From Salinibacterium sp. dk2585 (GTDB lineage Bacteria > Actinomycetota > Actinomycetes > Actinomycetales > Microbacteriaceae), in contig NZ_CP042856.1 in NCBI RefSeq assembly GCF_008001035.1, forward strand, positions 2,232,001 to 2,296,000: DNA of 64,000 nt, written 5' to 3'. Below are positions 4,333 through 52,028 of this stretch, one piece after another; the first letter of the stretch is position 1, and each line of letters starts with the position of its first letter. The notes beneath the pieces are model-generated. The model saw only the letters and a list, made by a program, of their open reading frames with translations, was not told the origin of the DNA and searched no databases. Made by a program: the position numbers and the translations under genes.

Positions 4333-4440
4333 CTTTCACAATTCAGGAACTTTCTCGCCAGGTCCTGAATTGTGAAAGACAGGTCCTGAATTGTGAAAGA
4401 CAGGTCCTGAGTTGGGAGAGACAACTCCTGAATTGGGAAG
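4333..4440. repeat. 21-bp phased intergenic repeat cluster (family 1, copy A)
   Basis: Five units of a 16-bp motif, consensus TCCTGARTTGKGARAG. One unit is inverted (ctttcacaattcagga, 4333-4348). Four are direct, starting at 4363, 4384, 4405 and 4426, exactly 21 bp apart. The first and second units form a perfect 16-bp inverted repeat with a 14-bp loop. The cluster fills the gap between hisS and eno. The same motif and spacing recur at 35202-35286 and 47367-47433. Confidence 0.9.
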
Positions 4441-17794: not shown

Positions 17795-17852
17795 GTGAGT
17801 GGCCAAACTCTCGGCTTCCCGTCGAGCTTTGGGCGAAACTTTGGCCACTCAC
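17795..17852. repeat. Palindromic intergenic repeat (family 2, copy A)
   Basis: Outer 13-bp arms gtgagtggccaaa (17795-17807) and tttggccactcac (17840-17852) enclose a conserved core with TCGGCTT and GAAA. It lies between convergent genes and ends 14 nt before the CaiB stop, a position fit for a bidirectional terminator. A close relative is at 22633-22690. Confidence 0.85.
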
Positions 17853-21846: not shown

Positions 21847-21885
21847 GGAGCCGGTTGAAATCGCTCCGCGATTTCAACTGGCTCC
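21847..21885. repeat. Hairpin whose arm includes the tRNA-Gln 3' end
   Basis: Arms ggagccggttgaaatcg (21847-21863) and cgatttcaactggctcc (21869-21885) pair over 17 bp with one mismatch and a 5-nt loop. The right arm contains the tRNA CCA and three acceptor-end bases, so the precursor 3' trailer can pair with mature tRNA sequence. Confidence 0.7.
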
Positions 21886-21953
21886 GCCCCCAGGATTCGA
21901 ACCTGGTCCTAACAGTTCCAAAGACTGCCGTGCTGCCGTTACACCAGGGCGGA
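21879..21953 (-). tRNA. tRNA-Gln (anticodon TTG)
   Basis: 75 nt including the encoded CCA. Acceptor stem TCCGCCC/GGGCGGA, discriminator G, D-arm GTGTAACGGCAGCAC, anticodon loop CTTTGGA giving TTG, and T-arm CCAGGTTCGAATCCTGG all fold into the standard cloverleaf. Reads CAA and, by wobble, CAG. Divergent from the MarR gene. Confidence 0.97.
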
Positions 21954-22583: not shown

Positions 22584-22630
22584 CTCTCATCTCTCATCTC
22601 TCATCTCTCATCTCTCATCTCTCATCTCTC
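22584..22630. repeat. Tandem 7-bp repeat CTCTCAT
   Basis: Six perfect head-to-tail copies of CTCTCAT (22584-22625) plus a partial seventh, starting 21 bp after the MarR stop. It is a simple microsatellite, probably length-variable by slippage, placed directly before the family 2 palindrome. Confidence 0.95.
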
Positions 22631-22632
22631 GG

Positions 22633-22690
22633 CCCAGTGGCCAAAGTTTCGGCTTACCGGAGCGATGAAGGTGAAAGTTTGGCCACTCAC
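22633..22690. repeat. Palindromic intergenic repeat (family 2, copy B)
   Basis: Arms gtggccaaa (22637-22645) and tttggccac (22678-22686), with the same TCGGCTT and GAAA core as the copy at 17795-17852. It lies in the convergent MarR/DksA-like gap, a bidirectional-terminator position, 51 bp before the latter's stop. Confidence 0.85.
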
Positions 22691-34369: not shown

Positions 34370-35200
34370 TCAGGCGCGTGTGATTGCGAGGAAGTCGTGC
34401 ACCGTCAGCTGTTCGCCGCGCTCGGTCGGCTTGATGCCGGCAGCTTCAAGACGAGCGGATGCCGCGGCAGAGCCCCCCAGCACGCCCGCGAGCGACTGGC
34501 GCAGCATCTTGCGGCGCTGGCCGAATGCGGCGTCGACGAGTTCGAAGGTCGCGAGGCGCTCCTCCTCCGTGCCGAGCGGTTCCTCGCGCACCGTAAAGCC
34601 GACGAGGATCGAGTCGACGTTGGGCACCGGCCAGAAGACCTGGCGGCTGACGAGGCCCGCCGTGCGCCAGTGGCCATACCAGGCCGCCTTGACGCTCGGG
34701 CTGCCGTAGACCTTGCTGCCGGGCTCTGCGGCGAGGCGCTGGCCGACCTCGGCCTGCACCATCACGAGTCCAGAGGTGATGTACCTGAAATGCTCGAGGA
34801 AGTGCAGCAGCACGGGCACTGAGACGTTGTACGGCAGGTTCGCGACCAGGGTCTTTGGATGCCGCGGCAGCTCCATGATCGTCATGGCATCGTGCAGCAC
34901 GACCGTGACATCGGCGCCCGGCTGCATCGTCTCGACCGTCTTGGGCAGTTGCCCGGCGAGGCGCGGATCGATCTCGACCGCGACGACGGGGGCGCCCGTC
35001 TCGAGGAGTCCGAGTGTGAGCGATCCGAGGCCCGGGCCGATCTCGACGACCGGGGAGTCACCGGTGACCCCCGCGGCCGCAACGATGCGGCGGACGGTGT
35101 TGCCGTCGATGACGAAGTTCTGGCCCAGCTTCTTGGTGGGCTGCAGGTCGAGGAGTTCAGCGAGGTCGCGGATCTCGGCCGGCCCCAGGAGTGCTTTCAT
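34370..35200 (-). CDS. rsmA: 16S rRNA dimethyladenosine transferase RsmA/KsgA
   Basis: Dimethylates two adjacent adenines in helix 45 of 16S rRNA during 30S maturation. 276 residues. SAM motif I VVEIGPGLGSLT and the catalytic NLPYN motif are present, and the N-terminal TKKLGQNFVID is standard. The ATG at 35200 is immediately preceded by an inverted unit of the 21-bp phased repeat (35201-35209). The leader therefore contains this repeat, which may affect ribosome binding. Part of the metG-tatD-rsmA-ispE run. Confidence 0.96.
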   Translation of the reverse strand: MKALLGPAEIRDLAELLDLQPTKKLGQNFVIDGNTVRRIVAAAGVTGDSPVVEIGPGLGSLTLGLLETGAPVVAVEIDPRLAGQLPKTVETMQPGADVTVVLHDAMTIMELPRHPKTLVANLPYNVSVPVLLHFLEHFRYITSGLVMVQAEVGQRLAAEPGSKVYGSPSVKAAWYGHWRTAGLVSRQVFWPVPNVDSILVGFTVREEPLGTEEERLATFELVDAAFGQRRKMLRQSLAGVLGGSAAASARLEAAGIKPTERGEQLTVHDFLAITRA

Positions 35201-35201
35201 G

Positions 35202-35286
35202 ATTCAGGACCTGCCTTCCTGAGGCGAGAACTCCTGAGTTGGGAGCGAGAACTCCTGAGTTGGGAGCGAGAACTCCTGAGTTGGGA
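35202..35286. repeat. 21-bp phased intergenic repeat cluster (family 1, copy B)
   Basis: Three direct units of tcctgagttggga start at 35232, 35253 and 35274, exactly 21 bp apart, each separated by gcgagaac. A truncated unit starts at 35217 and an inverted attcagga lies at 35202-35209, next to the rsmA start. It fills the tatD-rsmA gap, with the same architecture as 4333-4440 and 47367-47433. Confidence 0.9.
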
Positions 35287-35298
35287 AAGGGAGGGCGC

Positions 35299-36195
35299 TC
35301 ATGCGAGAGGGTGCGGCGCGAACTCGCTCGGGGCATCCAGCACGAGCGGCTCGTCGTCCCACGAGCCGTAGACGGCTTCCGTGTTGGAGGCGATGACCGC
35401 GGCGAGCAGCGAGTCTGGCACGCCGAGGTGATCGGCCATGAAGCGCAGCGTCGTCGGGATCATGTACGAGGCGTTCGTCTGCCCGCGATGCGGCGTCGGC
35501 GTCAGGTAGGGAGAGTCCGTCTCGATCAGGATGTGATCACGCGGCACGACCTCGAGGGCCTCGCGCAGGTTCGCCGCATTCTTGAAGGTGACGGTGCCCG
35601 CGAAGGAGAGGTACCAGCCCTCCTCGGCACAGAGTCGCGCCATCGTGGCGTCACCGGAGAAGCAGTGGAACACCGTGCGCTCGGGAGCGCCCACGCGCAG
35701 GAGGGTGGAGATGACCTCGTCATGCGCGTCACGGTCATGGATCTGGAGCGCCAGGTCGTGCTTCTTGGCGATCTCGATGTGCGCCTCGAAGGAGTAGAAC
35801 TGGGCCGGGCGACCCACCTCGTCGGTGCGGTAGAAGTCGAGTCCCGTCTCCCCCACCGCGCGCACGCGGGGCCGCTGGGCGAGTTCCTCGATCTCGGCGA
35901 GCGACACATCCAGTGTGCCCGCACGGTCGAGCTCGGGGACGTCGTTCGGGTGGATGGCGACGGCGGCGAGCATCCGGGGTTCCCGCGCGGCCATCTGGGC
36001 CGACCAACGGGAGCTCGCGACATCCGTGCCCACCTGCACGACGCCCTTGACACCGACGCTCGATGCGAGATCGAGCGCCTCGCGGTAGTCGAGCAGCTCC
36101 GGCTCCCCCGAGGGCTGCCATGCCCCGTGTTCGAGGTGCGTGTGGTTGTCGTAGACGCCCACCGTGAGCGCCTCGGGCAGCGGGGGGTAGGTCAT
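35299..36195 (-). CDS. tatD: TatD family metal-dependent hydrolase
   Basis: 298-residue amidohydrolase-fold nuclease/hydrolase linked to DNA and D-aminoacyl quality control in other bacteria. Metal-site residues: His18 and His20 in DNHTHL, Glu in GETGLDFYR, His in QIHDRDAHDE, His in VFHCFSG and Asp in ETDSPYL. ATG 36195 overlaps the metG stop (ATGA), so the two are translationally coupled. The longer open frame lies inside metG and is rejected. Confidence 0.94.
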   Translation of the reverse strand: MTYPPLPEALTVGVYDNHTHLEHGAWQPSGEPELLDYREALDLASSVGVKGVVQVGTDVASSRWSAQMAAREPRMLAAVAIHPNDVPELDRAGTLDVSLAEIEELAQRPRVRAVGETGLDFYRTDEVGRPAQFYSFEAHIEIAKKHDLALQIHDRDAHDEVISTLLRVGAPERTVFHCFSGDATMARLCAEEGWYLSFAGTVTFKNAANLREALEVVPRDHILIETDSPYLTPTPHRGQTNASYMIPTTLRFMADHLGVPDSLLAAVIASNTEAVYGSWDDEPLVLDAPSEFAPHPLA

Positions 36196-46492: not shown

Positions 46493-47433
<941 letters not shown>

Positions 47434-51885: not shown

Positions 51886-51941
51886 ACTGAGCCGGATGGG
51901 CCAGCGCATGGTCGCAGCGTGAGCGGTCAGGGGCAGCGCTA

Positions 51942-51991
51942 CAGTTTCCGTCCGGCGCTACGGAAGTATCTGTAACGCCGGACGGAAACTG
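51942..51991 (-). terminator. Long palindrome after the ABC exporter operon
   Basis: Perfect 16-bp arms cagtttccgtccggcg (51942-51957) and cgccggacggaaactg (51976-51991), extended by gcgct/agcgc outside and tac/gta inside. It starts 38 nt past the permease stop on the minus strand. No clear T tract. Function as terminator or repeat element is inferred from position. Confidence 0.55.
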
Positions 51992-52028
51992 CAGCGCGAG
52001 CGCAGGCGGGCCGCAGGGACCTGGCGGC

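Follow-up and report, generated by a model that had tools for sequence, protein, structure and literature searches.

A gene-end repeat family of Salinibacterium sp. dk2585 that occupies the tatD/rsmA junction and avoids the terminus region

Results

A repeat array between tatD and rsmA

The window analysed here is a 64-kb stretch of the 2.835-Mb chromosome of Salinibacterium sp. dk2585 (G000). At the locus of interest a repeat array lies between a tatD family gene and rsmA, with the following features in window positions:

34370-35200, minus strand: rsmA (ksgA), 276 aa, start inside the repeat (TIGR00755, 230.8 bits, cut-off 171)
35299-36195, minus strand: tatD family gene, stop codon at 35299-35301 (TIGR00010, 218.9 bits, cut-off 206)
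35193-35295, no strand assigned: whole insert by the alignment junctions, 103 bp in G000 against 4 bp in the near relative G001
35194-35209, minus strand: inverted end unit TCCTGAATCATGAAAG, which holds the rsmA ATG (35200)
35220-35233, plus strand: partial unit of 14 bp
35224-35286, plus strand: three perfect direct 21-bp units GCGAGAACTCCTGAGTTGGGA, read from the sequence
35232-35244, 35253-35265 and 35274-35286, plus strand: cores TCCTGAGTTGGGA within the direct units

Both genes are read on the minus strand according to their NCBIfam profiles, and the last core (end 35286) is separated from the tatD stop codon by 12 bp. The preliminary description saw here three direct 21-bp units, a truncated unit and an inverted half, and the sequence confirms all of them. 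It took the stretch for the leader of rsmA, which it is, but it is equally the tail of tatD. The inverted half was placed beside the ATG; in fact the unit contains it. An in-frame TGA two codons upstream of this ATG excludes an earlier start of rsmA, and the start codon of the gene is supplied by the inverted repeat unit.

Does the array carry a recognizable signal? In 34900-35700, the only region scanned for such signals, there was neither a sigma-70-like match nor an intrinsic terminator (a G-C stem-loop followed by a T run), and an intrinsic terminator at rsmA was rejected as a candidate. Folded in the transcribed sense the array gives an RNA hairpin that is not unusually stable (z -0.43; opposite strand, z -1.7). 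A known RNA family was rejected too: the Rfam search at gathering scores, run on 14 sources including the window, had no match at the arrays and one tRNA, at 21882-21953 of the window.

Other repeats were also seen in the window. A perfect 7-bp tandem repeat, CTCTCAT in 6.7 copies, lies between convergent genes at 22584-22630 and is likely prone to slippage. At 51936-51997 there is a palindrome GCGCTACAGTTTCCGTCCGGCG with 22-bp arms; a similar sequence occurs near 114.8 kb of the chromosome, and the two possibly represent a third family.

Copies across the chromosome and their placement at gene ends

Within the window, 11 matches to TCCTGAATTGGGA were found at up to 2 mismatches against 0.54 expected, a number reached in none of 100 shuffles. 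Two related arrays, both with steps of 21 bp, accompany the one at rsmA:

4336-4438, no strand assigned: one minus and four plus units, hairpin z -3.8, between genes that we take, by eye, to be hisS and eno
47369-47430, no strand assigned: two minus and one plus unit, RNA hairpin z -2.6

The repeat occurs at far more than two or three loci. The pattern TCCTGARTTGKGA has 95 matches in 37 clusters on the G000 chromosome, and the reversed-pattern control has none. A step of 21 bp between neighbouring units is common, and a G at the sixteenth position, beyond the 13-base motif, is found in 93 of the 95 copies. No paper on this repeat family was found among the titles and abstract openings listed from the open-licence literature.

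Where do the clusters lie with respect to genes? Gene orientation was taken from our own codon-usage gene caller and is approximate: the caller flagged one cluster inside an open reading frame, gave another a 13-bp overlap with a gene end, and missed tatD at rsmA. With these calls the genes flanking a cluster are convergent in 22 cases, co-directional in 15 and divergent in none. Among background gene pairs in sampled arm DNA, the window included, 27/135 are convergent and 28/135 divergent (Fisher p = 8e-6 and 8e-4, respectively, for clusters against arm pairs). By the same caller, 30 of the 37 clusters start at most 30 bp from a stop codon. The units of the 15 co-directional clusters point towards the gene end in 35 of 48 cases and away from it in 13. 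By the strict motif 9 of the 22 convergent clusters have minus units only and 7 have plus units only. At 2793335 the start codon of the following gene apparently lies inside a repeat unit, as at rsmA. At 2454184-2455284 of the chromosome a called open reading frame runs in frame through an array, and the peptide has a period of roughly 7 residues because 21 bp make seven codons.

Inverted pairs and hairpins

With a relaxed motif, 28 inverted neighbour pairs were counted in the G000 sequence examined, and the terminal inverted repeats CTTTCMCAAYTCAGGA ... TCCTGARTTGKGAAAG are found at many loci, not at all of them. Where minus units precede plus units long stems are formed, with z reaching -13.6 at 2507 kb. 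The array at 187.5 kb is a nearly perfect palindrome in both G000 and G001 (hairpin z -11.7 for the G001 counterpart); its letters differ between the two genomes, both sides having changed together. When all inverted pairs are taken together, the two arms clearly agree in the inner eight bases alone (104/224 against 76.2; 108/200 against 64.2), a count that is inflated because gaps of 1 to 2 bases put letters of the opposite arm inside. Covariation between arms is weak in the core, where 309 and 102 of 5000 shuffles reach the observed value; the outer flank gives a moderate signal in G000 (38/5000) and none in G001 (1794/5000). Near 48.1 kb of the chromosome, the G001 repeat sits in the basal part of a hairpin with a different tip in G000.

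Presence, absence and unit turnover in relatives

Is the repeat at rsmA an old feature of the locus? In G001 tatD and rsmA are 95% identical to those of G000 and the flanks about 94%, and there the two genes overlap at an ATGA with no repeat between them. The junction is similarly tight in two other genomes of the genus, G003 and G004, and the ATGA overlap appears, from this sequence comparison, to be the ancestral state. G002 carries a different element at the site, with the same right boundary and likewise carrying the rsmA ATG. A loss or exchange in G001, in place of an insertion in G000, is therefore conceivable. The pattern TCCTGARTTGNGR has no match in 80 named rsmA loci, that of G001 included.

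The preliminary description proposed a comparison of unit numbers between strains. The comparison made here is with one near relative, G001, instead of strains, and it covers the orthologous sites of the 37 clusters. Of these sites 26 are occupied in G001 (one of them across a contig break), 6 are empty (886545, 2097983, rsmA, 2643748, 2718923 and 2793293 in G000), one holds a remnant (2712205) and one a different repeat (2756001); the remaining 3 are without assignment (267179, 772535 and 2279369). Conversely, G001 has an array near the position of 95.9 kb, where G000 has none. Arrays common to both genomes mostly differ in unit number and in the letters of the spacers. Direct neighbours are more alike in their cores than shuffled units, as local duplication would give, in G000 (152/192 against 133.9) and in G001 (138/176 against 113.4), with 0 of 5000 shuffles reaching either value. 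In the flanks the likeness is clear in G000 (0 and 2 of 5000 shuffles) and weak in G001 (160/5000 and 268/5000). Inspection by eye of the empty junctions examined, whose boundaries are blurred by base changes, showed no clear target-site duplication.

Thus the proposal of a mobile-like sequence that grows in 21-bp steps was mostly right, given the 95 copies in 37 clusters, the differing unit numbers at orthologous sites, the six empty sites including rsmA and the likeness of neighbouring units at core positions. The proposal of an operator array found no support, with no cluster between divergent genes, most clusters starting within 30 bp of a called stop codon, and, in G001, G003 and G004, a leaderless junction at which the stop and start codons overlap or almost do.

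Breadth in Microbacteriaceae and search for a mobilizer

At least one match was found in 41 of 398 Microbacteriaceae genomes, the reversed control giving at most 1 per strand per genome; a single match, which chance would give, is common among the 41. Genomes with at least 3 matches belong to seven genera (g1, g29, g64, g67, g70, g72 and g79). In g72 the copies form inverted pairs, each element spanning about 80 bp, whose arms are similar and whose loops differ. Within the genus of G000 the relaxed pattern has 15 matches in G002, 1 in G003 and 0 in G004. Three g72 loci, L056 (428-900), L058 (449-1197) and L059 (391-840), contain runs of about 450 to 750 bp in which two kinds of palindrome, each about 70 to 80 bp long, alternate, one kind with TCACAA-type and the other with CCCCAA-type ends.

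What could mobilize the repeat? The whole-genome search for a mobilizer covered the RAYT family (Y1_Tnp, PF01797) only. It was negative in all five genus genomes and positive in 5 of 14 control genomes, and a RAYT-driven REPIN was rejected on this ground. At four places where two clusters lie close together, the genes were inspected by eye and included no evident transposase. An origin from phages or plasmids was also rejected, a 111-bp query being unmatched by distant blastn in 72,556 plasmid and 50,697 phage records; no viral contig had two strict adjacent units.

A desert centred on the terminus

The copies are not spread evenly over the chromosome. With parS at 4.2 kb and dnaA near the contig start (identified by eye and confirmed as a tblastn query), the terminus is expected near 1.419 Mb. 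Strict copies are absent between 886,557 and 1,935,688 (desert 886545-1935730, 0.887-1.936 Mb), and the centre of this desert, 1.411 Mb, is 8 kb from the point opposite dnaA. Per seventh of the distance from origin to terminus the clusters number 12, 10, 6, 5, 4, 0 and 0. A gap this large was reached in 0 of 20000 random placements, and in 2 of 20000 after clusters within 10 kb were merged. As a control, 35 isolated two-mismatch forward-strand matches among the matches listed have no such positional bias. All 73 strict sites of G001 map outside the gap or at its edge, which is not independent support since G001 shares ancestry with G000.

Is the avoidance a property of this one sequence? A second family, GTGGCCAAASTTT, consists mostly of inverted pairs and has 34 matches (at most 1 mismatch) at 17 places in G000; its copies in the window, at 22637-22686 and 17799-17848, have arms whose starts are 37-38 bp apart. 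It is absent from 0.773-2.250 Mb, a gap whose centre is 92 kb from the expected point (1 to 21 of 20000 simulations). In the one genome of another genus that was studied in this respect, G325, 43 TCCTGARTTGNGR matches extend from 4.025 Mb through zero to 1.930 Mb. Its origin was guessed from the matches to lie near 0.94 Mb and only 0.74-1.14 Mb was then examined; dnaA and a parS cluster are at 0.764-0.773 Mb, so the guess was only roughly right. The centre of the G325 gap is 164 kb from the point opposite dnaA, reached in 1 to 11 of 20000 simulations. The terminus side is avoided by the GTGGCCAAASTTT family and in G325 as well, less exactly.

Several simple causes were examined. Two 12-kb desert stretches, of 11 sampled, were searched in relatives and both are conserved in 5/5 genus genomes (92-95% identity in G001, 71-83% in the others), and in G003, a genome in one contig, they occupy similar coordinates; recently acquired DNA is thus no explanation in these two. 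A shortage of convergent sites was rejected, convergent pairs making up 20/102 in the sampled desert against 27/135 in the sampled arms. A ban on all hairpins was rejected too: inverted repeats with stems of at least 14 are not clearly rarer in the desert samples (5 in 132 kb) than in random samples of the arms (4 in 108 kb). The 64-kb window has 6 of them, including one copy of the TCCTGARTTGKGA family.

Discussion

What kind of element is the stretch between tatD and rsmA? It is probably a copy of an intergenic repeat family that proliferates, builds palindromes and behaves like REP and MITE elements. The family has many copies, lies mostly at gene 3' ends, is present or absent at orthologous sites, varies in unit number, has units that resemble their neighbours, and avoids the terminus side in G000, G001 and G325. 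It may spread by copying through an enzyme that acts in trans, and slippage or unequal exchange could raise the number of its direct units, 21 bp at a time. Copies behind stop codons or between convergent genes would persist since they are least harmful there, or since a hairpin at an RNA 3' end is mildly useful. At tatD/rsmA an insertion would have split the overlapping stop-start junction, the inverted end unit becoming the start codon of rsmA. Chromosome position, and not recent acquisition of DNA in the two stretches tested, would keep the family on the origin side. Some observations fit this REP- and MITE-like reading poorly. PF01797 is absent from the five genus genomes and no transposase is evident near the four cluster pairs; the empty sites have no clear target-site duplication; the rsmA array is a poor RNA hairpin in the transcribed sense; a minority of the units in co-directional clusters point in the other direction, not towards the gene end; the arms covary weakly in part, and weak too is the flank likeness of direct neighbours in G001.

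If the arrays were instead selected RNA 3'-end structures, terminators or mRNA-stabilizing hairpins for which repeat families are interchangeable, the closeness to stop codons and the several very stable hairpins would follow. So would the different repeats of G000 and G001 at the same gene end at 2756 kb, the G001 element near 48 kb, which sits in a hairpin base where the G000 hairpin is different, and the arms at 187.5 kb that changed together. We find this reading rather doubtful: the one region scanned, 34900-35700, has no terminator-like site, the rsmA array does not fold unusually well as transcribed, and six gene ends are without the array in G001. In addition, convergent pairs are equally frequent in desert and arms, so a general terminator role predicts no desert. 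If the array were an operator bound by a regulator that controls rsmA and further genes, the 21-bp spacing being a two-turn phasing, the perfect direct units and their position next to rsmA would be accounted for. This reading is very improbable and was discarded, for the clusters are placed at gene ends with none between divergent genes, and relatives have the overlap at the junction, with no array in G001, G003 or G004. The negative results for a sigma-70-like match in 34900-35700 and for TCCTGARTTGNGR in the 80 named rsmA loci count against it too.

The desert itself might be read in other ways. By analogy with nucleoid occlusion, the units could be sites for a chromosome-organizing protein that are kept out of the terminus and couple division or organization to the end of replication. 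The close centring of the desert opposite dnaA and the 37 clusters per chromosome are in line with this, as are the core TCCTGARTTGNGR common to another genus with differing loops, the same avoidance in G325, and the conserved DNA of two desert stretches. In the part of the source available (PMC4726725), Noc has about 70 sites and SlmA 24-52, not uniformly distributed, and arrays of such sites placed in the terminus region delay division, which makes a protein-array reading worth testing. Yet it is unlikely. The GTGGCCAAASTTT family has a different sequence and the same avoidance, so that one DNA-binding protein would not explain the desert; and the strong preference for gene 3' ends, with most units of co-directional clusters pointing towards the gene end, the near absence of matches in G003 and G004, and presence or absence between near relatives all speak against it. 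Similarly unlikely is the more specific proposal of a conserved Microbacteriaceae unit TCCTGARTTGNG, placed at gene ends in expandable 21-bp arrays or in palindromes some 80 bp long, that would mark the arms near the origin and be kept out of the terminus actively. Spread by a mobile repeat, it would form a binding array for a putative actinobacterial nucleoid-occlusion or arm-organizing factor. It is quite improbable, too, that the desert is accessory, recently acquired DNA near the terminus. The analogy is with P. fluorescens, where deserts coincide with strain-specific or atypical regions according to the available text of PMC2718517 and PMC3390384; here both of the desert stretches that were tested are conserved throughout the five genus genomes.

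Then why does one part of a bacterial chromosome, conserved in the stretches tested, reject repeats that are tolerated in the arms? The cause may be a spread tied to early-replicating DNA, a selection against repeats near the terminus where forks meet, or a role in the arms such as that of an arm-marking factor, in each case specific to interspersed repeats. At the locus itself, the repeat stands where near relatives have overlapping genes, and gives a conserved gene its start codon.

Comparison with known systems

The REP-like and MITE-like reading can be set beside several known systems. Like the REP, BIME and REPIN elements of E. coli and Pseudomonas, the repeats are short, extragenic and palindromic, often in inverted pairs and in many copies. 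They differ in that the genus genomes have no RAYT gene, that they grow as 21-bp direct arrays, and that there is one terminus-centred desert, of core DNA in the two stretches tested. In REP and REPIN elements with RAYT the palindrome is tagged on one side by GTAG or CGTC, according to the accessible text of PMC3733652. The intergenic inverted repeats of P. fluorescens SBW25 share the tail-to-tail bias, the stem-loops and the presence of deserts, as far as the available text of PMC2718517 goes; it counts 60 deserts, mostly of strain-specific genes, whereas here there is one terminus-centred region and two repeat families and two genera are involved. With MITEs the repeats share inverted ends, presence/absence polymorphism and the lack of a transposase of their own, but they show no clear target-site duplication at the empty sites, nor was an autonomous partner found near the four cluster pairs. 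With Noc and SlmA sites, as far as the same partial source describes them, they share dozens of unevenly spread sites and a terminus free of them (here tested in G000 and G325). The placement at gene ends and the tandem arrays set them apart from these protein sites. REP-like and MITE-like repeats are familiar; it is the desert, a terminus-centred region that is avoided by a second family too and in one genome of another genus, that raises this repeat above the routine.
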